From positions 1-32,394 of the forward strand of contig JACPEW010000008.1 in the NCBI GenBank assembly GCA_016183305.1: a stretch of DNA of 32,394 bases, in the 5' to 3' direction. The position numbers and the translations under genes are program-made. Source of the DNA: Candidatus Daviesbacteria bacterium. GTDB lineage: Bacteria > Patescibacteriota > Microgenomatia > Daviesbacterales > UBA10151. Below the pieces are notes generated by a model. It made no database searches. It was not told the origin of the DNA and saw only the letters and a program-made list of their open reading frames with translations. Numbering within the stretch: position 1 is the stretch's first letter; each line of letters opens with the position of its first letter. Shown here one piece after another: positions 17,045-29,697 of the stretch.

Positions 17045-17050
17045 AACGCT

Positions 17051-17166
17051 GTTCTTTCGGGGATTTGCGAAAGTCAAAATCGGTAGTAAACTCTACGAGG
17101 GTCGAACCTTCGACCCATGAGCCAGTGAAACTCTGGCAGCGACCGTACAGTCGGGATGAAAGAAAG
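17051..17166 (+). promoter_or_regulatory. FMN riboswitch (RFN element)
   Basis: P1 TTCTTTC/GAAAGAA (17052-17058/17158-17164), internal CGGTAGTAAA ... CCATGAGCC ... GCGACCGTACAGTCGGGATG signatures, directly upstream of ribE. Confidence 0.88.
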
Positions 17167-17169
17167 AAT

Positions 17170-17745
17170 ATGTTTACAGGAATAATTACTAGTCTAGGCC
17201 ATGTGGCCAAAAAAACAGATAAAAACCTAACAATTTTAGCTGATCGTCTTTTTTTGTTACAAATTCAAAAAGGCAGCAGCATCTCTGTAAATGGTACCTG
17301 TTTAACGGTTGCTCAAACTGGCAAACAGTCCTTCACGGTAGACTTCATGCCGGAGACCAGTAACAAAACCAATATCCAAAACCTAAAAATAAATAGCCTG
17401 GTAAATTTGGAGCTGCCTGCAACAGCTGCTTCATTTTTATCTGGCCATCTGGTCCAAGGCCATGTAGATAGTACAGCAACATTAATAAGTCTCACCAAGC
17501 AGGAAAATAGCAGCCTGTTAAAATTCTCCATCCCTGCTGATTTAGCTAAATATATTGTAGAAAAAGGATCAATTGCTGTTAATGGCATTTCTTTAACCGT
17601 TATTAAGGTAGGAAAAAATTATTTTACAGTTGGTATTATTCCTTATACCTGGAATAACACTATGCTTAAAACTATCAAGCCGGAAGATTTAGTTAATATT
17701 GAGGTTGATATTTTGACCAAATACGTAGAAAGATTATTAAAATGA
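17170..17745 (+). CDS. ribE: Riboflavin synthase alpha chain
   Basis: MFTGIITSLG start, SVNGTCLTV, HLVQGHVD, VNGISLTV repeats. ORF-track start 17065 lies in the riboswitch. Confidence 0.93.
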   Translation: MFTGIITSLGHVAKKTDKNLTILADRLFLLQIQKGSSISVNGTCLTVAQTGKQSFTVDFMPETSNKTNIQNLKINSLVNLELPATAASFLSGHLVQGHVDSTATLISLTKQENSSLLKFSIPADLAKYIVEKGSIAVNGISLTVIKVGKNYFTVGIIPYTWNNTMLKTIKPEDLVNIEVDILTKYVERLLK

Positions 17746-18185
17746 CAAACATAAACAATATTAAAATTGCTATAGTCAGCAGTAACTTCCGCAAAGATGT
17801 CTCAGAAAACTTGGAGAAAAACTGCCTGGCAACTCTAAAAAAACAGGGTTTAAAAGATAATTGTATAGATATCTTTAGGGTTCCGGGAGCGCTTGAAATA
17901 CCTCTTGTTGTAAAAAAACTGGCCAAGAAAAAAATTTACAGCGCCATCATTACTTTTGGAGCCATAGTAAAGGGGGATACTTATCATTTTGAACAAATAA
18001 GCAACGAATGCGCTAAAGGCTGTATGGAAGTTTCCCTGCAGTATGAAATACCGGTTATTTTTGAAGTATTATCAGTCTATAAATTAAAAGATGCTTTAGA
18101 CAGGGCAACCAGAAGTAAAGAAAACAAAGGAGTAGAAGCAGCTTTAACAGCTTTAGAAATGACTAAAACTGTTCCTAAATTATGA
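17742..18185 (+). CDS. ribH: 6,7-dimethyl-8-ribityllumazine synthase
   Basis: FRVPGALEIPLVVKKL, ITFGAIVKGDTYHFEQISNECAKG. Confidence 0.93.
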   Translation: MTNINNIKIAIVSSNFRKDVSENLEKNCLATLKKQGLKDNCIDIFRVPGALEIPLVVKKLAKKKIYSAIITFGAIVKGDTYHFEQISNECAKGCMEVSLQYEIPVIFEVLSVYKLKDALDRATRSKENKGVEAALTALEMTKTVPKL

Positions 18186-19408
18186 ACAAAGCTCATATCG
18201 CCATACCAGAAGCAATAGAAGAAATCAAAAAAGGTAAAATGTTGATCTTGCTTGACCAGAAAAGAGAAAAAGAAGCAGATCTATATATTCCTACTGATAA
18301 ATTGACTCCTCAAATGGTCAATACCATGATTAAGCTTGGGGGCGGATTAATTTGCGCTGCTATTACTCAAAAACAGGCTCATAAACTAGCCCTTCCTTTA
18401 ATGGTGGAACCTTTAGACAATGATGAAAAAACCGGGGTAAATTTTACCATATCAGTGGATGCTGAAAAAAACACTACAACCGGGGTTTCAGTCAATGACC
18501 GGTTTAAAACTATCAAGGCTCTTTCTAATCCTAAATCAAACCCTAGCGCCTTGCTTAGGCCTGGACATATTTTTGGTTTAATTGCCCAAAACGGAGGAGT
18601 CTTAGAAAGAGCTGGACATACTGAATCAGCAGTTGATTTAGCAAGACTTGCCAACTTAAATCCTGCCGGGGTACTTTGTGAAATTCTATCTGATAATGGC
18701 CAAACAGCCGGATTGCCTGATTTGATCAAGCTGTCTAAGAAGTTGAAAGTTAAGATAGTCTTGATAGAAGAATTGGTTAAATACTTAAAAGCTAATCCTT
18801 TGCCAAAGCCCGGTGAATCTTCTTGTGTTATTAAAACTGCCCAATCTAATTTACCTACAAAGTATGGACTTTTTAAAATAATTATTTATAAATCCTTAAA
18901 TGACAACCGCGAACATGCTGTTTTAACTTTGGGAAAACCAACAAAACCGGTTTTAATAAGAATTCATTCTCAATGTTTAACTGGAGACACCTTTTCATCT
19001 TTGCGCTGTGATTGTGGGGAACAACTTAAAAAAAGCATGGAGTTAATCAATAAAAAAGGCAGCGGAACAATCCTTTATTTAAATCAGGAAGGCCGAGGTA
19101 TTGGGTTAACTAATAAAATCAAGGCTTATGCCCTACAGAATCAAGGCTACGATACTGTAGAAGCCAATGAGGCATTAGGATTTCCCTCTGATGCCAGATC
19201 TTATAAAGAAGCTGCTGATATTTTAAAAAATCTAGGAGCAACTGAAATCAATCTGTTAACTAATAATCCTGATAAAAAAGACCAGTTAGCCAAATTTGGT
19301 ATTCTTGTTTTAAAAAGAACTGCTTTAGAGATTAAACCTAACAAAGTTGACTTAAACTACCTAAAAATTAAAAAAAGAAAAATGCGCCATCAGTTAAAAC
19401 TAGTATAA
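18182..19408 (+). CDS. ribBA: Bifunctional DHBP synthase / GTP cyclohydrolase II
   Basis: LLRPGHIFGL...RAGHTESAVDLARLA and HSQCLTGDTFSSLRCDCGEQL, GRGIGLTNKIKAYALQ. Confidence 0.93.
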   Translation: MNKAHIAIPEAIEEIKKGKMLILLDQKREKEADLYIPTDKLTPQMVNTMIKLGGGLICAAITQKQAHKLALPLMVEPLDNDEKTGVNFTISVDAEKNTTTGVSVNDRFKTIKALSNPKSNPSALLRPGHIFGLIAQNGGVLERAGHTESAVDLARLANLNPAGVLCEILSDNGQTAGLPDLIKLSKKLKVKIVLIEELVKYLKANPLPKPGESSCVIKTAQSNLPTKYGLFKIIIYKSLNDNREHAVLTLGKPTKPVLIRIHSQCLTGDTFSSLRCDCGEQLKKSMELINKKGSGTILYLNQEGRGIGLTNKIKAYALQNQGYDTVEANEALGFPSDARSYKEAADILKNLGATEINLLTNNPDKKDQLAKFGILVLKRTALEIKPNKVDLNYLKIKKRKMRHQLKLV

Positions 19409-19414
19409 ATCTAT

Positions 19415-20485
19415 ATGCCTTCAGATCAATCTTTCCTGAGTCTTTGTTTAAGGCTTGCCAGAAAAGGCTTAGGTTGGACTAATCCTAACCCGTTAGCCGG
19501 AGCAGTTCTAGTTAGAAATAACCGCATTATTGGCCGGGGCTTTCATCACCAAGTTGGTAAAGCTCATGCAGAAATTGAAGCTTTAGCTGTTTCAGAAGAC
19601 CCAAAAGGAGCCACGCTATATGTTAATTTAGAACCTTGTTCCAGCTTCGGTAAAACCCCTCCTTGCGTAGATACTATTATTGAAAAAAAGATCAAGAAAG
19701 TAGTATTTTCTACTTTAGACCCCAATCCTAAAAATTACGGAAAAGGTCTAGCTAAATTACAACAAGCCGGTATAGAAACTTCAGTGGGAATACTAGAAAC
19801 AGAAGCCAGACGATTAAATGAAGCTTTTTTCATCTTTCATGAAAAAAACAGGCCTTTTATAGTTTTAAAATTTGCTGCATCTTTGGATGGTAAAATAGCC
19901 ACTTATACTGGTGATTCCAGGTGGATTACCAATGAAAAAGCCAGACTTTATGCCAGAAATTTGCGGGGACAATACCAGGCAATATTAGCCGGTATAAACA
20001 CTATCCTTGCTGATAATCCAAATTTGGGTACAAGGATTAAAGGTAAAAAAGATCCTATTAGAATTATTCTGGATGCAGAATTAAAAATTCCTCTGAATGC
20101 TCAAGTGTTACGGGATAACAATGTTATTATCGCAACGACCACTAAAGCCAATAAAAGTAAACAAGCGCAGCTAGAAAAAAAGGGTGTAACAGTTTGGCTA
20201 TTTGATCAGATCACTATCAACAAAATATTATCTAAGTTAAAAGAAGAAACGATCATTAGTATTTTAGTAGAGGGTGGCGGACAAACCTTAGGAGAATTTG
20301 TTGATGCTAAAATAATCGATAAAGTTTATGCTTTTCATGCTCCCCTAATAATTGGCGGAGAAAAAGCTATCAGTATTGGCAGACAGGGAGCTTCAACTAT
20401 TAAACAAGCTTTGCATTTACAAAACGTTATCTTTAAAAGGTTTGAAGATAATCTTCTAACAATTGGCTACATACAAAAAGTCTAA
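19415..20485 (+). CDS. ribD: Bifunctional diaminohydroxyphosphoribosylaminopyrimidine deaminase / uracil reductase
   Basis: HAEIEAL, LEPCSSFGKTPPC, KFAASLDGKIATYTGDSRWIT, LVEGGGQTLGEF. Confidence 0.93.
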   Translation: MPSDQSFLSLCLRLARKGLGWTNPNPLAGAVLVRNNRIIGRGFHHQVGKAHAEIEALAVSEDPKGATLYVNLEPCSSFGKTPPCVDTIIEKKIKKVVFSTLDPNPKNYGKGLAKLQQAGIETSVGILETEARRLNEAFFIFHEKNRPFIVLKFAASLDGKIATYTGDSRWITNEKARLYARNLRGQYQAILAGINTILADNPNLGTRIKGKKDPIRIILDAELKIPLNAQVLRDNNVIIATTTKANKSKQAQLEKKGVTVWLFDQITINKILSKLKEETIISILVEGGGQTLGEFVDAKIIDKVYAFHAPLIIGGEKAISIGRQGASTIKQALHLQNVIFKRFEDNLLTIGYIQKV

Positions 20486-20748: not shown

Positions 20749-21501
20749 ATGGAAACTCTATTTCTGCTTCCCTTATTATTATTCTTTTTCTATTCCATCA
20801 AACAGGTCAATCAATATGAGCGTGGTGTTAAGTTTAGATTTGGTAAATATGTAGGACTGATGGAGCCCGGCTGGAGGCTTGTCTTACCTGTTATAGAATC
20901 CTGGACTAGGATAGACATACGGGTCAAGGCTGTTGATGTGCCTGATCAGGAAGCCATCACCCGTGATAATGTTTCCGCCAAGGTTAATGCTGTGATTTAT
21001 TACCGTATTAGTTTAGCCAACAAGGCAGTGATTGAAGTGGAAGATTTTTTCTATGCTGTATCCCAACTGGCACAAACCACCATGCGGAATGTAGTGGGTG
21101 AGACTTCCCTTGACGACCTTTTATCCAAAAGAAACGAGGTGGCAGATAAAATACAAAAGATTATAGATAAAGCAACAGACCCCTGGGGAATAAAAGTGGA
21201 GTCTGTAGAATTAAAAGATATAATACTTCCGGATGAAATGAAAAGGGTCATTGCAAGGCAGGCAGAGGCGGAAAGGGAAAGAAGGGCGATCATTATCCGG
21301 GCAGAAGGAGAAAAAGCTGCAGCGGAAAACATTGCTTTAGCAGCAGGAAAACTGGCTAAAACTACAGGTGGTTTACATGTCAGGACCCTGCAAACTTTAA
21401 GCGAGCTCTCTGCAGATAAGAATAATACTATTGTGTTTGTCACTCCCCTGGAAATACTCCGGGCCTTCGAGGGTTTTGTCAAAAGAGCATCTAAAAAATA
21501 A
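20749..21501 (+). CDS. SPFH/band 7 (slipin) membrane protein
   Basis: VNQYERGVKFRFGKYVGLMEPGWRLVLPVIE, DNVSAKVNAVIYYRI, RQAEAERERRAIIIRAEGEK. Confidence 0.92.
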   Translation: METLFLLPLLLFFFYSIKQVNQYERGVKFRFGKYVGLMEPGWRLVLPVIESWTRIDIRVKAVDVPDQEAITRDNVSAKVNAVIYYRISLANKAVIEVEDFFYAVSQLAQTTMRNVVGETSLDDLLSKRNEVADKIQKIIDKATDPWGIKVESVELKDIILPDEMKRVIARQAEAERERRAIIIRAEGEKAAAENIALAAGKLAKTTGGLHVRTLQTLSELSADKNNTIVFVTPLEILRAFEGFVKRASKK

Positions 21502-21540
21502 TCGTTGACAGAAATTTTAATGTTTGGTAGTGTATTAACA

Positions 21541-22101
21541 ATGTCAAATCTTGCTGATGATTTAAGGAATGCTCTTTCATCTGTAGTTTCTGGCGCAGGT
21601 GATGTTGCCTCAACTGTTCAAAATGTAGCAAAGGAAAATGTTATCAAGCTTCTTCAGGGAGCCGGTGATGTGGCTAATACAGGACTTCAAACTGTTGATG
21701 ATGTGGTAGGTGAAGGTTTGGAAACTATCTCCCAAACAGGAGCTTCCTTAACTGATGGGGTTACAAGTTTGGTAAGGGGTGTAGTTGATGGGGCAAAAGA
21801 TACCGGAGTAAATGCCACAGAAGCAGCAGGAGAAGCAGCCTCACAGGCTGTTAAAACTGCTTCCAAAGTTGGTGGGGATGTAGGAGAAGTGGCGATATCT
21901 TCCGTCCAGGGAGTAATCCAAGCAGCAGGTGATATTGGTGAAGATTCAGGAAAACTTGCCAAAAGCGCAGTAATGGGTACTTTAAAAGCAGCTGATGAAA
22001 TTGGATCAGAAGCAGGTGGAATTGTCAGAAAAGCACTTCTTAATGCTGCTGCATTACCTCATGATATTATTGATGCGCTCCTCACAGGTAAAACAGAGTA
22101 A
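21541..22101 (+). CDS. Low-complexity Ala/Gly/Val helical-repeat protein (LEA/apolipoprotein-like), hypothetical
   Basis: Repeated GAGDVAxT / GEAASQAVKTASKVGGDVGEVA segments; in-frame ATG at 21541. Confidence 0.65.
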   Translation: MSNLADDLRNALSSVVSGAGDVASTVQNVAKENVIKLLQGAGDVANTGLQTVDDVVGEGLETISQTGASLTDGVTSLVRGVVDGAKDTGVNATEAAGEAASQAVKTASKVGGDVGEVAISSVQGVIQAAGDIGEDSGKLAKSAVMGTLKAADEIGSEAGGIVRKALLNAAALPHDIIDALLTGKTE

Positions 22102-22156
22102 TTTCAACACTTTCCTATTGACAAATATCATAAACTAAACTAAATTAAAAATAGCT

Positions 22157-22321
22157 CTATGGCGCAAGCTGTAGGGTTAGAGGAATTCTAGCAATAGAAT
22201 CTCTTGGGATTAGACCTCAGCAATGATATCCGGGTTTTGAGGGTGTGAATGCTGAGGGCAGGGTTACATGCCTGCCCGTCTTGGCTGAGCATACCGGTTT
22301 CGAACCTTTCAATCGCTATAG
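22157..22321 (+). ncRNA. Candidate structured RNA of unassigned class
   Basis: Closing helix CTATGGCG/CGCTATAG (22157-22164/22314-22321), hairpin with GCAA tetraloop (22179-22204), GGGCAGG/CCTGCCC hairpin (22256-22277), CCTCAGC/GCTGAGG helix; no ORF. Confidence 0.55.
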
Positions 22322-22436
22322 TCTCTTGTCCTATATTGTCTCACACCAAGCCTAAATGAGACAAATGAGACACTATAAAAAGATCCATCCATCTCAAAAC
22401 TAAATCCTATAGTACTCAACCTTATAGGGAAAACTT

Positions 22437-23063
22437 TTATACTTTTTCTAAACTCTCTTTTAGAGCCTTGGCTAAAAGACTTTCCAGTTTTGAAGGATCA
22501 TGGTCATCTGCTGCTTTCATGGCTTTGATATAACGTTGTCTATCTTGTCCTGTTTCAGCTTTAATTTCTAAAGCAGGTAATCCATAGTTTAAAACCAAAA
22601 GGTTAGTAAGCAGTCTGGCAATTCTGCCGTTATAATCCTTGAATGGATGAATCCAGACAAACTGATGCTGAAACCATGCCAGAAGCGATATTACCTCGGC
22701 TAGAAACTGTTCTTCATCCTTTATTGAGGGAATATGTTTAAGCCTTTCTTCTAAGTCATCACACAGATTTTTCACTAAAACAGCAATCTTACTGTAATGC
22801 GGTGGTTCATAATCTCCTACTGTTACATCAACTGTTCTAAATTTACCTGTCCAATCAGGAAATATAAAGCCAAACCCAACTTTATGAATATCTTGGATAA
22901 GCTCAGGAGTAATCTTAATTTTTTTCTCACTCAGTTTGATAATGTACTGGAGTGCTTTCTTTATACCTTCAGCTTCAAGAGGAATAATCTTTGAGCGGGG
23001 AAGAATACCAAAAGCAGTCTCTTTAAAACTAGTTGAACCCTTTGGTTTAGTTGTTTTGGCCAC
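22437..23063 (-). CDS. Fic/DOC-family protein (putative AMPylating toxin)
   Basis: HPFKDYNGRIARLL Fic motif; GTG start. Confidence 0.88.
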   Translation of the reverse strand: MAKTTKPKGSTSFKETAFGILPRSKIIPLEAEGIKKALQYIIKLSEKKIKITPELIQDIHKVGFGFIFPDWTGKFRTVDVTVGDYEPPHYSKIAVLVKNLCDDLEERLKHIPSIKDEEQFLAEVISLLAWFQHQFVWIHPFKDYNGRIARLLTNLLVLNYGLPALEIKAETGQDRQRYIKAMKAADDHDPSKLESLLAKALKESLEKV

Positions 23064-23103
23064 AGTAATTTAGGGCAAGATTATTGCGCAGAAAGAGCTT
23101 TGC

Positions 23104-23292
23104 TCATTTAAAAAGAGCTTGTGCTTCTTTTCTAGTAATTTGCTCGCCTTCAAGACGCATGGTGCGGTAGACAACTTCAGGAAGAAGATTTTTTACATTT
23201 GGTTTTTTACCCATGTTTAAATAGCGTTTCTTAAAACTTCTAAACGCTTGGATAAGACCTTTGTTTTTATCTACTAATTGAATACTAGTCAT
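23104..23292 (-). CDS. Small Fic antitoxin-like protein with inhibitory-helix motif
   Basis: VYRTMRLEGEQITRKEAQALFK contains (S/T)xxxE(G/N) (TMRLEG); located immediately upstream of fic. Confidence 0.75.
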   Translation of the reverse strand: MTSIQLVDKNKGLIQAFRSFKKRYLNMGKKPNVKNLLPEVVYRTMRLEGEQITRKEAQALFK

Positions 23293-23308
23293 GTGCTTAT
23301 TATAGCAC
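23293..23308. promoter_or_regulatory. Inverted repeat GTGCT-N6-AGCAC overlapping minus-strand TATAAT of the Fic module
   Basis: gtgcttattatagcac directly upstream of the antitoxin ATG (23292). Confidence 0.6.
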
Positions 23309-23353
23309 TTTTACTATTTCTGGTATGGCTTAGTGTATAATCGAGCCTAACAT

Positions 23354-25486
23354 ATGGTTGATACTAAACAAATTCAGCTTTTTATGTCTGTATTTCGCGG
23401 TAGAACTGATGTCTATGCAAGACATTGGGAGAAAAATGGTAAAAGTGGCTACTCTCCGGCATATGAATTTAATTGGGGCGAGTTTATGGCTCATAAAGCC
23501 AGGGGCGGAAATTTAAGTAACTTTCCCAATAAGAAAACATTGCTTTTAACATTAGAAGTACTAAAATCTCATCTTGAAGGAATTCAGGCAATTGGTATTT
23601 ATCCTCTTTTGGAAGATAATACCTCATATTTTATTGCAGCTGATTTTGATAAAGAAAACTGGCAGGCAGAAAGTACTAATTTAATCAAAGTCTGCAAGCA
23701 ATTTGGGATTCCGGCATATCTTGAAAGATCCCGCTCAGGATCAGGCGCACATGTCTGGATCTTCTTTGAAGAAAAATATTCTGCCACGAAATCCAGAAGC
23801 TTAATGCTGGAACTAATCAGGAAGGCTTTAAATCTTTCTGAGTTTGAAAAGGAAGTTAGTTTTGACAGATTATTTCCTAACCAGGATTACCATACAAATG
23901 TAGGTTTTGGTAATTTAATTGCACTTCCTTTGCAGGGTATTCATCTTCCGCTGGGCAATACTGCATTTTTAAATCCCGAAACTTTAGAAATTATTTCCGA
24001 TCAATGGAAGTATTTAAATACTATTCAGAAATTATCCGAACATCAACTTGATAATCTTTATGCTACTCTGGTAAACGGAATTAATTCAAACCCGATAGAT
24101 GAAAAATCTAATTCAAGTAGTTTAACAATTATAGTAAATAACCATATTAAACTCCCAAAAAGTCATCTTACACCTATTTTAGTGCAATACTTACGAGAAA
24201 ATTTAAACTTTTTTAATACTGAATATCTGATCAAAAAGCGAATTGGGATTAGCACTTACCAAACTGAAAAATATTTTAAACTTATCACAGAAGAAGACGA
24301 GCATATTTATATCCCCAGAGGATTTCTTGATAATCTATTAATTTTTTGCAAGGAAAAACAAATATCTTACAAAATCTTAGATCAGAGAAAACTTAAACCT
24401 GCAACTGCTTTTAAATCAAAAATTAAACTCTACGATTATCAGAAGCGAGCTGTAGATGAAATCAAAGATAAAGATTTTGGTGTTATTGTAGCTCCTTCAG
24501 GTTCCGGAAAAACTGTTATTGGACTTAAGTTAGTCGCTGAAAAATCTCAACCAGCTCTTATTTTAGTCCACAGAGAGCAATTGCTAAATCAATGGATCGA
24601 AAGAATTGAATCTTTCTTAGGTATTTCTAAAACTGAGATCGGTCAAATCTCAGGCAGAAAGAAGAAGTTAGGGAAACAAATTACTGTAGCAATGATGCAA
24701 AGTCTTATTAAAATGGCAACTATTGATGATCTTACTAATCAGTTCGGCACTATCATTATTGATGAATGTCACCATATTCCGGCCAAAACATTCCGGGAAC
24801 TAATTGTTAAATTTAATCCCTATTATTTGTATGGCCTGACCGCCACTCCTAAACGTAAATATAACGATGAGAAGCTTATTTATTTTTATATCGGCGATAT
24901 CATTGCTGAGATTGATCCTAATAAGGAAAAGTCTACGGCTACACGAGCTATTACCTTACATATTAAGCAAACTGACCTTTCAGTCCCTTTTGACTATAAA
25001 ATTGATGAGTTTGAAACATTATCAAAAATTCTTACTTTTGACAGTAGCAGAAATAATATGATTGCAGAAGATATCTTAAACCAGGTTAAGGAGGGCAGAA
25101 AAGTTTTGGTTTTAACTGAAAGAAGGGAGCATGTTGAGACGTTAAACTTATATCTACAAAGCCAATGTGAAGTCATTACTCTAACTGGGGAAGATTCAAT
25201 TTCAAAACGCAAAGTAAAAACTGAACAGATTAAACTCGGACATTTTCAAGTACTTGTTGCCACCGGGCAACTTTTTGGGGAAGGCATGGACTTACCATTA
25301 TTGGACTCTTTATTTATAGTCTACCCTTTCTCTTTTGAGGGAAAATTGATCCAGTATATCGGCCGGATTCAAAGATCGGCAAACCAACAAATGATTTTTG
25401 ATTATCATGATAAAAATATTGATTATTTTGATAAACTTTTTAAGAAACGCCGCAGCTTTTACCGAAAGCGCGGATGGATATCCTGA
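23354..25486 (+). CDS. TOTE-type archaeo-eukaryotic primase fused to SF2 (DEAD/DEAH-like) helicase
   Basis: Primase motifs AADFDKE and RSRSGSGAHVWIFFE; Walker A APSGSGKT, DECHH, TATPKRK, IQYIGRIQRS. Confidence 0.88.
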   Translation: MVDTKQIQLFMSVFRGRTDVYARHWEKNGKSGYSPAYEFNWGEFMAHKARGGNLSNFPNKKTLLLTLEVLKSHLEGIQAIGIYPLLEDNTSYFIAADFDKENWQAESTNLIKVCKQFGIPAYLERSRSGSGAHVWIFFEEKYSATKSRSLMLELIRKALNLSEFEKEVSFDRLFPNQDYHTNVGFGNLIALPLQGIHLPLGNTAFLNPETLEIISDQWKYLNTIQKLSEHQLDNLYATLVNGINSNPIDEKSNSSSLTIIVNNHIKLPKSHLTPILVQYLRENLNFFNTEYLIKKRIGISTYQTEKYFKLITEEDEHIYIPRGFLDNLLIFCKEKQISYKILDQRKLKPATAFKSKIKLYDYQKRAVDEIKDKDFGVIVAPSGSGKTVIGLKLVAEKSQPALILVHREQLLNQWIERIESFLGISKTEIGQISGRKKKLGKQITVAMMQSLIKMATIDDLTNQFGTIIIDECHHIPAKTFRELIVKFNPYYLYGLTATPKRKYNDEKLIYFYIGDIIAEIDPNKEKSTATRAITLHIKQTDLSVPFDYKIDEFETLSKILTFDSSRNNMIAEDILNQVKEGRKVLVLTERREHVETLNLYLQSQCEVITLTGEDSISKRKVKTEQIKLGHFQVLVATGQLFGEGMDLPLLDSLFIVYPFSFEGKLIQYIGRIQRSANQQMIFDYHDKNIDYFDKLFKKRRSFYRKRGWIS

Positions 25487-25487
25487 T

Positions 25488-25907
25488 ATGTTATATGCTT
25501 TTGCATTAACAAATAGTTTAGGTAAATTGTTGTATAAGCTAAAAGCACCTGATCACTGCTACCTTGTCTGGAGTAACAACATTGATCATTATCTTGACAT
25601 TTTACTCCATGATCAACCTGAATTTATTTTAGGTATGGGGGTATATTCAGGAGTAGATCAGGAAACAATCGGAATTGAAACAGTTACAACTAATAATTTA
25701 CCAATTAATTATTTTCTTAAACCAGATGGCAGTAATGTAAAATTGGCATCCGGGTTAGGTAATTCATTGTGTAATCTCATTAGTTGGAAAATTATGAAAC
25801 TTATAAATAAAAATTTACTTAACTCAAAATATACCTTTTTACATATCCCCAAACAGTTTCCATCTTATAAAGCAGTTTCTCTTATTGAACAAATACTCAA
25901 GGGGTAA
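25488..25907 (+). CDS. Peptidase C15 (pyroglutamyl peptidase)-like protein
   Basis: IGIETVTTN (Glu), SGLGNSLCNLISWKI (Cys) and YTFLHIP (His) align in order with the C15 catalytic triad; start at 25488 immediately after the helicase. Confidence 0.65.
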   Translation: MLYAFALTNSLGKLLYKLKAPDHCYLVWSNNIDHYLDILLHDQPEFILGMGVYSGVDQETIGIETVTTNNLPINYFLKPDGSNVKLASGLGNSLCNLISWKIMKLINKNLLNSKYTFLHIPKQFPSYKAVSLIEQILKG

Positions 25908-25970
25908 TATCCTACACCTGGGTAGCTTCCCAAATGTTATACTCTGATCCAACTTCTGCCAAACGGGCAA

Positions 25971-26504
25971 ATGGCATCCTACTCCAAACGAAGAATTACA
26001 TATAATAAAGTAAGGCTATCCCTTTTCCTCCGTTCCTACGGTGCACATACTATCCTTAACCGATTCAAAAACAAACCCAATTACAGGATTATCAGCCGAC
26101 TGGGCAATGTTTTGAATTTAGATATGCACTTACTTAACAGGTTTTTCAGCTCCGGTACCTACCCAAGAGGATTACCTAACTTAAACCGTTTAACAAAGTA
26201 TATCGTTCCAAAAGAAAAAATGTTAGTTTATTTAGAAATAGAGCAGGAGATCATAAACATAGCCTTAGAAAAACAAGATAAGGAAAAAACATCCCTTGAG
26301 GATTACGACAAAGCCCTAATGGAACCGGCCATAGAAAGAGTTGCAGGAAATCACCTAAAAAGTGTTGAGGATGATAAAGTTTTTGATGCTCAACTGGAGG
26401 AGTTACAAAGAAAATATCAAAACTGGTACTACGCTACGGCCTACAAATATAAACTGCCTACATCCCGCATCATCCCGTTTATTTTAAGGCTTATCCAAGA
26501 TTAA
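25971..26504 (+). CDS. Hypothetical protein
   Basis: Complete 177-aa ORF, charged and helical; no family recognised. Confidence 0.6.
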   Translation: MASYSKRRITYNKVRLSLFLRSYGAHTILNRFKNKPNYRIISRLGNVLNLDMHLLNRFFSSGTYPRGLPNLNRLTKYIVPKEKMLVYLEIEQEIINIALEKQDKEKTSLEDYDKALMEPAIERVAGNHLKSVEDDKVFDAQLEELQRKYQNWYYATAYKYKLPTSRIIPFILRLIQD

Positions 26505-27151
26505 CTTAATTTATTTCTTACCGAAGGAAAAAGAATTTCCAATAATGACCTTTTTTCTCTTTTTACATTAAAACTTCCATACCACCCTCTATTTCGGGGA
26601 GGCTCATTATAGTAAGAACACTCCATCATATTCCTGCTTGCTATATATTCATGCTTAGCTGCTCCATAATGTCCATGCATTGTTGGCGAAGCGTTATTTT
26701 GTGGTTCATTTCTGTAGATATAATGTAGAACCTTTCTCCCATCAGCTTCTTTATAAAAATCTGAAACTATACTGAAAGACCAAGATCTACTAAAATAGCA
26801 ATAAACTTTTATACTGGAAAATGTTTGGATTACTTCAACTCTTACTTCATATGGGGTACGATTGTTATCATAAGATGATCTAAGCTTACCTACCCACGTT
26901 CCATTCAGATTAGGCACATCTACTATTTGAAACATTCCCGCAGGAAAGAACTGCCATAAAGAATAGTTGAAAAGTTGAAATAAAAAAGAGTACATGCCAA
27001 GAACACCAAGCGAATCAATTAGGAATATCCACGGATAAGATATATGTTCCTGTAAGAAAACGTTAATCAGATACGCAAAAGCCACACTAATAATAGGTAA
27101 TATAATTAGAAAAATCAGCTGATGACTGAGTTTTGAAAGCTGCGCTCCCAT
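26501..27151 (-). CDS. cap15: Cap15-like CBASS effector (two TM plus beta-barrel)
   Basis: Two N-terminal hydrophobic helices then VPNLNGTWVGKLRSSYDNNRTPYEVRVEVIQTFSSIKVYCYFSRSWSFS, characteristic of Cap15; adjacent to CD-NTase. Confidence 0.8.
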   Translation of the reverse strand: MGAQLSKLSHQLIFLIILPIISVAFAYLINVFLQEHISYPWIFLIDSLGVLGMYSFLFQLFNYSLWQFFPAGMFQIVDVPNLNGTWVGKLRSSYDNNRTPYEVRVEVIQTFSSIKVYCYFSRSWSFSIVSDFYKEADGRKVLHYIYRNEPQNNASPTMHGHYGAAKHEYIASRNMMECSYYNEPPRNRGWYGSFNVKREKRSLLEILFPSVRNKLS

Positions 27152-27152
27152 A

Positions 27153-28028
27153 TCAAACTTCTAGAAAGTTCCACACCTTTCCCATAAACGTTTGTGCATG
27201 TATTGGAGTATACACAACATTTCCTTTAAAAAGCCATTCAAGCTCGTGAATTTTTTTGTAGTTATTGTACGGATCCTTTTCCAATTTCATATCATGCCAA
27301 ACTTTTCCAGTAACTGACTTTAATATTTCCACATAAGTACCTTGAAAATGTGGACTTGATACATTCCATACCAAAGATTCTATAAAATGAGATGGGGCAT
27401 CTTCATCTTTTAGCTTTTCTGAATCCACAAGTGCTTGCATAATATTCTTATATATTCTGACTGTATCTTTAAATTTACCGTCCGTTTCTGTATTCTTATC
27501 TTCTCCATTTTTATGGTGCTGTACAGGAAAATTAACTACCTCCTCACCAGAGTCCATAAAAAAATGTATCCCTACGGCATCAAAAGCATAAGGATCTGTG
27601 TATCTTTGGTGGGTAAAACATACAACCACATCAGCGTTAACCCTATTTTCATTTTTCAGCACCCTAATGCACTTTGGATGCCATTTAACTTCTTTATCAG
27701 AAAATTCATCCAAAAGGACCTTGTATACATCTAACTTAAACTGTGAAAATGTATAATCATGTTTTATTGTTACCCTATGATATTCGGCAATTTGCTCTGC
27801 CGACATATCAAAAAAACCTGGATAATAAGCAGGGGTATACTCAACAACAATATCAACATCACTTTCAGATTTAGTATTTGTTTTATTTTTGTATGACCCT
27901 TGTAGGTATACTGTTATATTTCCACCAAATTTTTTTATAAGAGCCTTTTCAATTCTTTCTCTAGTAGCAATATACTTCACTGCGCTAGGAGGAGTTGCCC
28001 AAATTTTAAGTTGATCTTCTGTAATCAT
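27153..28028 (-). CDS. CD-NTase (cGAS/DncV-like nucleotidyltransferase) of CBASS
   Basis: GSYKNKTNTKSESDVDIVVEY (GS...DxD) and a third acidic in VNADVVVCF. Confidence 0.88.
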   Translation of the reverse strand: MITEDQLKIWATPPSAVKYIATRERIEKALIKKFGGNITVYLQGSYKNKTNTKSESDVDIVVEYTPAYYPGFFDMSAEQIAEYHRVTIKHDYTFSQFKLDVYKVLLDEFSDKEVKWHPKCIRVLKNENRVNADVVVCFTHQRYTDPYAFDAVGIHFFMDSGEEVVNFPVQHHKNGEDKNTETDGKFKDTVRIYKNIMQALVDSEKLKDEDAPSHFIESLVWNVSSPHFQGTYVEILKSVTGKVWHDMKLEKDPYNNYKKIHELEWLFKGNVVYTPIHAQTFMGKVWNFLEV

Positions 28029-28036
28029 AATGTTTT

Positions 28037-28267
28037 TTATCCTTTAGGTAGAATTGCTACGCCTATATTTGCTAAAAGCGGATTTGCTATACGCCACAGG
28101 ATGTATTCTATGTGTGTCTTATCACTTTTTTGTCTGTTGCAACCAAAACAGATCCAGCGAATATTATTAGGGGTATCTGACCCTCCTCGGGAGAGTGGAG
28201 TTATATGATCTTTCTCAAAAAAGAGAAAAAGTCCGGACCAATTGCAATAGATACAAGTTATATTCAT
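28037..28267 (-). CDS. HNH endonuclease
   Basis: CIYC ... KDHITPLSRGGSDTPNNIRWICFGCNRQKSDKT. Confidence 0.88.
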   Translation of the reverse strand: MNITCIYCNWSGLFLFFEKDHITPLSRGGSDTPNNIRWICFGCNRQKSDKTHIEYILWRIANPLLANIGVAILPKG

Positions 28268-28319
28268 ATCTTTTTGTCACCTTGTAACTCAGACAGAAGT
28301 TTGGTAACATATACATAAT

Positions 28320-28337
28320 TAGGTAGTTTATAACCTA
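28320..28337. promoter_or_regulatory. Inverted repeat TAGGT-N8-ACCTA between the CBASS operon and lexA-like gene
   Basis: TAGGTAGTTTATAACCTA in the divergent intergenic region. Confidence 0.45.
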
Positions 28338-28380
28338 CAAAAATAAGATATATTAAATACAAAAATTTGTCAATAACTAA

Positions 28381-29007
28381 ATGAGGCACCCTACACCAAA
28401 ACAGCAGGCAATTATAGATTTTATTAAGAATTATTTCCGTCAAAAAGCAATATCTCCTACATTCAGAGAGATCGCTGATAATTTTGGTGTCTCTGTAGGA
28501 ACAATCCAAGACCAATTAAATTCACTAAATAGGTTAGGCATGCTAACTTGGATTCCCGGTAAAACAAGGTCAATCAAGTTAGCATCTGAGTATAGAGTCC
28601 ATACAACTCAACCTGTTCCGCTTTTGGGTGTAATTTCCGCAGGAGAAGGTATTACTGTATTTGAAGAATCGGATCCAGAAATTATAGATGTACCATCCAC
28701 AATGTTAAATGCAAGATTTGGCTATTATTGCTTAAAGGTATCTGGTTTCAGCATGAACCAAGACGGCATTCTTGATGGTGATATTATTGTTGTCAAGCAG
28801 CAAGCAACAGCGCAAGACGGAGACACTGTCATTGCAATAATTAATGACGGTTTAGAAGAAAGGGCTACTTTAAAGAGATTTTATCACCGAGGAAATCAGA
28901 TTGAACTGCGTCCGCGTAATCAGGAATATCAATCTCGTTTTCTAAATCCTGAAGAAGTTACTGTGCGTGGTAAATTCTGTGGACTATTACGTAGAAGTGA
29001 TGTCTAA
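28381..29007 (+). CDS. lexA: LexA-like S24 repressor
   Basis: PTPKQQAIIDFIKNYFRQKAISPTFREIADNFGVSVGTIQDQL HTH; SAG cleavage site (ISAGEGI), SGFSM nucleophile, ATLKRF lysine. Confidence 0.9.
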   Translation: MRHPTPKQQAIIDFIKNYFRQKAISPTFREIADNFGVSVGTIQDQLNSLNRLGMLTWIPGKTRSIKLASEYRVHTTQPVPLLGVISAGEGITVFEESDPEIIDVPSTMLNARFGYYCLKVSGFSMNQDGILDGDIIVVKQQATAQDGDTVIAIINDGLEERATLKRFYHRGNQIELRPRNQEYQSRFLNPEEVTVRGKFCGLLRRSDV

Positions 29008-29022
29008 TAAACGTTCTTTATC

Positions 29023-29697
29023 TTATAGCAGACTTAATGTCACTTTAGTATATTTACAATAGATACAACCATCGGAACATTTAGGAGCTGAACGTTTGCT
29101 TAGAATTTTCTTTGCCTCATAGATTTTATCTTCCACCCAACCATCATCACCATCATAGGGTTGGACTTTAATATCAAAACTTAAATTACCTTTGGCAAAT
29201 CCATTGTCTTTATTTACTCTGCAATAAACAAAATACCCTATATTGAGTACCTTAAATCCCATCTGCCGCAGTATCCACTGGTATATCTCCATTTGGTGTT
29301 TGTAACTCTCATAAAGTTCGCCTTCTTTGGCTCCAGAAGCCTTATAATCGACCACAATCAGATTACCTTTAGAATCTACCCAAATGTCATCTACTGCCCC
29401 AAAAACTAGAAAATCTGTTTCTTTATGATGATATTGAATTCCAGTAAAAGTATTCCTCCATTTATCAATGTCCTCATGCATAAATGGGATAGCATCTATA
29501 TTTTCTCGGGTAATTAAGTAGTGGGCAGTACCATTTTTACGATGTTCATCAAACTCCTTTTTTAAAAGAAAATCTACAGCATTATTTATGGTGTAAGGAG
29601 CTCCAAAAGGCCGGGCAATACCTTTTCCGGCATAAAACCAAAAGCATCGAGGGCATTCAAATAATAATTCTAATTTTGATCTTGATAGTTTAATCAT
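29023..29697 (-). CDS. PD-(D/E)XK nuclease, Cas4/RecB-like with putative Fe-S cysteines
   Basis: SKLELLFECPRCFWF, GAVDDIWVDSKGNLIVVDYKAS, C-terminal KCSDGCIYCKY. Confidence 0.85.
   Translation of the reverse strand: MIKLSRSKLELLFECPRCFWFYAGKGIARPFGAPYTINNAVDFLLKKEFDEHRKNGTAHYLITRENIDAIPFMHEDIDKWRNTFTGIQYHHKETDFLVFGAVDDIWVDSKGNLIVVDYKASGAKEGELYESYKHQMEIYQWILRQMGFKVLNIGYFVYCRVNKDNGFAKGNLSFDIKVQPYDGDDGWVEDKIYEAKKILSKRSAPKCSDGCIYCKYTKVTLSLL

Follow-up and report, generated by a model that had tools for sequence, protein, structure and literature searches.

A truncated, predicted small RNA gene joined to the probable attachment arms of serine-recombinase islands in Candidatus Daviesbacteria

The window, by which we mean the whole stretch of 32,394 nucleotides of Candidatus Daviesbacteria contig JACPEW010000008.1 analysed here, carries at 22157-22321 a segment that an initial annotation took for one structured RNA of about 165 nt. 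We conclude, with a probability of roughly 0.87, that this segment is the junction of a promoter and truncated new small RNA (sRNA; 22118-22225) with the attachment arms of a serine-recombinase island (22226-22382, minus strand). Two modules lie end to end in it, the 5' part of the sRNA and a DNA recombination-site junction (Table 1). When 22100-22440 is used as a query against relatives, the matches begin and stop at fixed points. Query positions 8-126 (window 22107-22225), or parts of them, match seven relatives at 72-100% identity, while positions 129-188 and 185-283 recur in relatives without the left part. The left and right halves were found in no relative in the arrangement seen in the window, and each recurs alone. 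Because the matches stop and start in this way, the 165 nt are best described as pieces leading separate lives. The reading developed below draws on the sequences of the arms, their co-location with a recombinase gene, the exchange of partners at the junction, ends specific to each anchor and an empty site in relatives.

Table 1. Features assigned in and around the segment (window coordinates)
Feature	Position	Strand	Remarks
198-aa ORF	21505-22101	+	no Pfam/NCBIfam family
sRNA promoter	22118-22146	+	-35 TTGACA 22118-22123, 17-nt spacer, -10-like TAAATT 22141-22146
sRNA, 5' ~78 nt of ~93 nt	22148-22225	+	covariance model R1 and alignments
sRNA hairpin 1	22152-22179	+	GCAA
sRNA hairpin 2	22180-22205	+	GCAA
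sRNA hairpin 3 (terminator)	22206-22225	+	5' arm and loop only
Breakpoint	22225-22226		~58 bp (terminator 3' arm, U-tract, spacer) missing relative to G026
P' arm	22226-22283	-	CAAGACGGGCAGGCATGTAACCCTGCCC...CACCCTCAAAACCCGGATAT, with GGGCAGG/CCTGCCC dyad; near-identical arm in G003, G000
Recombination core	22284-22289	-	CTCAGC on minus (GCTGAG on +)
A half-site	22284-22321	-	consensus TATAANGATNGAAAGGTTCTAGACCNGNATGCTCAGC from 72 aligned copies
Tail, GTCTCA direct and inverted repeats	22322-22382	-	TATAGTGTCTCATTTGTCTCATTTAGGC..GTGAGACAATA; profile E 3e-23 here
Outer tail, degenerate remainder	22383-22440	-	usual form TATATCAAACTACATCA..TTTGAGACACCC; aligned upstream flanks
Fic/Doc-family gene	22437-23063	-	Pfam Fic; convergent with sRNA; last gene before A arm of right-hand island

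Read on the minus strand, the junction has the order tail, A half-site, P'. The near-identical P' arms of G003 and of G000, the window's own genome, lie directly 3' of tRNA-Gln and next to a recombinase gene. The A half-site resembles the T-arm and acceptor 3' half of a tRNA. Across its 72 copies conservation runs at 1.5-2.0 bits up to CTCAGC and drops below 0.4 bits right after it. In front of P', a tRNA-Gln end (..CGCA|GC) and an A arm (..CTCA|GC) are interchangeable, and the switch from one to the other falls exactly at the core. A and P' occur both apart and joined at this same core, with A|P' junctions recurring in G010, G037, G157, G269 and others. The P' dyad (22256-22277), which suggests a symmetric protein-binding site, differs on both sides between the window and a copy on contig C19 of G000 (L084, just after 8131), where it reads GGGCACC/GGTGCCC. 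A combined P'/A/tail query matches 66 of the 286 Microgenomatia genomes, most of them at the tail. The exact tail core is present in 39 named Patescibacteria stretches, on contigs from Levy-, Davies-, Shapiro-, Gottesman-, Woese-, Curtiss-, Beckwith- and Roizmanbacteria, in agreement with a host of the class Microgenomatia.

The associated enzyme is illustrated by G003. There the gene next to the tRNA-Gln|P' end codes for a protein of 453 aa with the domains Resolvase, Recombinase and zinc ribbon, and the 3' end of this gene faces the tRNA. One island end carries, at L072:278-1639, a protein with the domains Resolvase, Recombinase and Zn_ribbon_recom; these enzymes are large serine recombinases of about 450 aa. 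In the case of G000, the recombinase gene is frameshifted and stands beside tRNA-Gln(CTG) on a contig other than that of the window. Close homologues are found in 30 of the 286 Microgenomatia genomes, and the P'/A/tail query matches 24 of these 30, versus the 66 of 286 overall (Fisher p 2.5e-12). At 20 of the 30 close-homologue loci the recombinase gene is 3' of, and faces, tRNA-Gln, -Ser or -Glu/Lys; a tRNA 3' of the gene was not found at the other 10, and in the vicinity of ten recombinase genes ARAGORN detected no tmRNA. For the homologues at L184 and L186-L191, neither a tRNA nor a tmRNA was found in the ~0.7-5.5 kb 3' of the gene, and their anchors may be of another kind or decayed. As candidates for attC-type integron sites, the right-hand pieces of the segment were dropped, the adjacent enzyme being a serine recombinase.

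The terminal bases of the A arm fit the anchor, with CAGC for Gln, CCGC for Ser and TCAC for Glu/Lys. Of 16 pairs on the same contig, 15 have an A end that matches the class of the anchor, and the remaining end, CGGC, is a Gln-type variant. The recombinase tree is divided in the same terms: users of Gln are grouped (100/99), as are users of Glu/Lys (100/99), and both groups extend across different host families. G157 possesses Gln-type and Glu-type sites together, each near its own tRNA.

Relatives also provide the site in empty and filled form. G266 and G166 have tRNA-Glu(CTC) between a core gene of 784 aa and two further genes, of 153 and 487 aa in this order, whereas in G218 about 14.6 kb lie between tRNA-Glu and an A arm, flanked by those same genes. 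The insert carries P' and the recombinase at its tRNA end and the A arm at its far end, and so has two defined ends, tRNA|P' and A, with an empty site in relatives. In other members of the same family, the tRNA of this neighbourhood is inverted. Most carriers have one A arm, located 10-20 kb from the recombinase; G269 and G279 have several each, and both G149 (tRNA-Gln) and G157 (tRNA-Glu) contain short units that have no recombinase. Locus L073 (G035:C9:114100-134000) has eight A arms, all oriented alike, over ~16 kb; between them lie likely cargo and also core genes (Obg, BipA/TypA), and these core genes do not fit simple mobile cargo. In L088 (G037:C14:180000-190000), A|P' is 3.5 kb from tRNA-Gln(CTG) in the opposite orientation, possibly as the result of an inversion.

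Such arrays raise the question of integron-like cassettes: A sites would be captured in succession at tRNA-Gln, and a serine recombinase would take the place of the tyrosine integrase. The up to eight same-orientation arms of G035, the several arms of G269 and G279 and the short recombinase-less units of G149 and G157 are all in keeping with this explanation. Nevertheless, the single, distant A arm of most carriers looks like that of an ordinary island, core genes lie within the G035 array, no circular cassettes were seen, and tandem accretion of islands accounts for the same data. We consider cassettes somewhat unlikely.

For islands carried by a serine recombinase, the reading we prefer, the enzyme would join the A|P' site of the island to a tRNA 3' end, so that tRNA|P' comes to lie by the recombinase gene and A|flank at the opposite end of the island. 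In this reading the recombinase would catalyse the reaction at these arms, the islands would pass through circular intermediates, although no circular form was seen, and the tail would have some role. A new island can presumably also take an A arm as its target, given the likeness of this arm to the T-arm and 3' end of a tRNA, and islands would then pile up. In the window, the A arm would belong to a right-hand island that carries the Fic, TOTE-like primase-helicase and CBASS genes, and P' to a left-hand unit of sRNA, 198-aa ORF and Band_7 gene. With A belonging to the right and P' to the left, the two units would abut, as in tandem accretion. The right-hand genes form a defence-type cluster (22437-29697) of Fic, a TOTE-type primase-helicase, CBASS genes (an oligonucleotide cyclase and a Cap15/2TM effector) and a Cas4-like nuclease. 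On the left, a Band_7/SPFH gene is followed by the 198-aa ORF (20749-22101). In G149 the same set of sRNA, 198-aa ORF and Band_7 gene comes directly after tRNA-Gln|P', and in G026 a Band_7 gene is beside the sRNA. Elsewhere in the window (17049-20485), an FMN riboswitch (Rfam RF00050, 87.9 bits) lies ahead of riboflavin-biosynthesis genes, namely a DHBP synthase/GTP cyclohydrolase II fusion and a RibD-type gene.

The left module, 22148-22225, is the 5' part of a member of a new family of predicted sRNA genes, which stand alone. In relatives, intact copies measure ~93 nt, have a TTGACA/TATAAT promoter and fold into three hairpins, the last of which forms, with a T-tract, an intrinsic terminator. 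The hairpin caps are nearly always GNRA, mostly GCAA, and the molecule is almost fully double-stranded. Covariance model R1 matches 26 of the 286 Microgenomatia genomes, an upper-side count at that threshold, as some weak matches within the class (L229, L230) look spurious. An alignment of 27 matches has two-sided changes at 34 of 35 pairs, a count inflated by the fitting of these rows to the model. Paired cells make up 94.5% of that alignment and 46-57% when the partners are slid, and none of 500 shuffles reaches as high. Nine intact copies, aligned by sequence and not by model, give the three-hairpin consensus with 7 compensatory pairs. Two further checks are independent of the model fit. 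By folding alone, 21 of 23 homologues form three GNRA-capped hairpins. Outside the covariance model, a TTGACA-like box precedes the modelled RNA by 29-32 nt in every one of the 23 aligned homologues, with 0-3 mismatches in total; the promoter takes the form TTGACA-N16-18-TATAAT-like, and boxes with 0-2 mismatches are present in 22 of the 23, versus 1.6% of random positions in the same loci.

No fixed neighbour gene of the sRNA was found. Because its neighbours vary from genome to genome, we regard the sRNA as a gene standing alone, with its own promoter and intrinsic terminator, the latter absent from the window copy. The initial annotation had already taken the RNA to be stand-alone and unassigned; both descriptions hold for the sRNA part. 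Rfam 15, at gathering and relaxed thresholds, has no match at the segment in the window or at the sRNA of 13 loci with intact or divergent copies, and the window contains no tRNA or tmRNA. In the wider phylum, most of the weak matches outside Microgenomatia lack the promoter or the set of three GNRA loops; these matches are probably terminators picked up by chance. A description of the sRNA was not found in the openly licensed literature, an absence that is weak evidence. The likeliest action of the sRNA, which we put forward tentatively, would be to bind a protein that recognises capped hairpins. We favour this over base-pairing with mRNA because almost all of the molecule is paired, its loops repeat and it has almost no conserved single-stranded seed. 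An sRNA that sequesters a protein, together with a serine-recombinase cassette system that uses an arm imitating tRNA to assemble integron-like arrays from tRNA 3' ends, is a combined scenario that we would call unlikely.

The window copy of the sRNA is cut short. Matches to the left part in relatives always end at CAGCAATG, followed by GGGTCTTTT or a close variant, and where the window stops they run on into GGGTCTTTTTCTTTT. In homologues from other genera and families, a terminator closes the gene at the point at which the window breaks off. The window and G026 are identical over 119 nt, and both resume at ATATCCG[GA]GTTTTGAGGGT past the gap. The 3' arm of the terminator has apparently been lost by a deletion of ~58 bp, and because of this loss the window copy is probably broken or read through. 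The loss is known from one draft genome, in which an assembly error is possible. The entire junction of truncated sRNA and A|P' might likewise be a misassembly, given a draft of 28 contigs that is 85% complete and a deletion seen in this genome alone. This is improbable, as the A|P' junctions arise independently in the other genomes named above and G026 resumes at the same ATATCCG motif.

These results bear directly on the single 165-nt RNA, closed by one helix and switching between two alternative helices, that the initial annotation described. Each motif is present at its place: CTATGGCG at 22157 and CGCTATAG at 22314, CTCAGC at 22216, GCTGAG at 22251 and 22284, GCAA at 22164, 22191 and 22220, and GGGCAGG at 22256 with CCTGCCC at 22271. 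The segment does precede a convergent gene, lying between the plus-strand ORF and Fic. A modest folding excess over shuffles exists on the plus strand (z -2.2; minus strand, -1.7), and with the terminator gone the segment could be transcribed by read-through. The covariation found in relatives clearly makes the left part a structured RNA, one that has no Rfam match, but the right part is not conserved with it and is, on the minus strand, a sharply bounded DNA junction. The 8-bp closing helix is absent from the minimum-energy fold, in which CTATGGCG lies in a local GCAA hairpin, and would pair unrelated modules. Since the halves recur separately, the whole fold was found in this window only, and helix and switch are coincidental: CTCAGC at 22216 is the 5' arm of the lost terminator, left without its partner, and GCTGAG at 22284 is the recombination core. 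The strong GGGCAGG/CCTGCCC pairing corresponds to the dyad of the P' arm. The single RNA is largely refuted, and we rate it as very improbable. Hardly credible, too, is the suggestion that tail and A are themselves a conserved RNA (a tRNA-mimicking transcript or riboregulator) and no recombination site; A does resemble part of a tRNA and the P' dyad does change on both sides, but conservation ends past CTCAGC, real tRNA 3' ends exchange in front of P' and the ends are anchor-specific, and the arms are linked to a recombinase gene and to insertion at empty sites.

Patescibacteria have tiny genomes, and their gene gain is poorly known. For gene gain across Microgenomatia, the junction described here would point to a site, an enzyme and an anchor that can be recognised, and islands of this class could be searched for by their signature; in the window, the cargo includes defence genes. 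We found no description of a serine recombinase in Microgenomates, or of such arrays or islands, in openly licensed papers, again an absence that is weak evidence. To our knowledge, few sRNAs have been described from the phylum. The present family is a well-supported addition, and it brings the testable idea that repeated GCAA loops are protein-binding sites. Protein-binding sRNAs of the CsrB/RsmY type also stand alone, repeat one and the same hairpin loop and have a terminator, although their loops are GGA and those of the present sRNA GNRA (GCAA).

Among mobile elements, SCC/SCCmec (CcrA/B/C) has the large serine recombinase family in common with these islands, and CcrB gives the best NCBIfam matches (7.9e-25, 4e-34). 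At 87.5 and 118.2 bits, against a cut-off of 900 bits for NCBIfam CcrB, the enzymes are nevertheless not Ccr proteins. SCC forms composite tandem elements, as here, in a different host and with a different target and arms. Integrons resemble the arrays in having same-orientation recombination sites after genes and in growing at an anchor, but they employ a tyrosine recombinase (IntI), whereas the enzyme at the anchor here is a serine recombinase and the anchor a tRNA gene. The closest described system is that of the ssrA-specific islands (DsiB) of Dehalococcoides, in which a CcrB-like serine recombinase is encoded on the reverse strand next to attL, the islands lie on the 3' side of the RNA gene in tandem and recombinase-less units, and accretion has been proposed (PMC3146451). 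The CcrB-like enzyme encoded on the reverse strand, the 3' side of an RNA gene and the tandem and recombinase-less units are shared with the islands in Microgenomatia. The Dehalococcoides islands use ssrA and a 20-bp direct repeat, whereas the anchors found here are genes for tRNA-Gln, -Ser, -Glu and -Lys, not ssrA, with identity limited to a short core of a few bases. Unlike that of the Dehalococcoides islands, the distal arm here bears a conserved tail of GTCTCA repeats.
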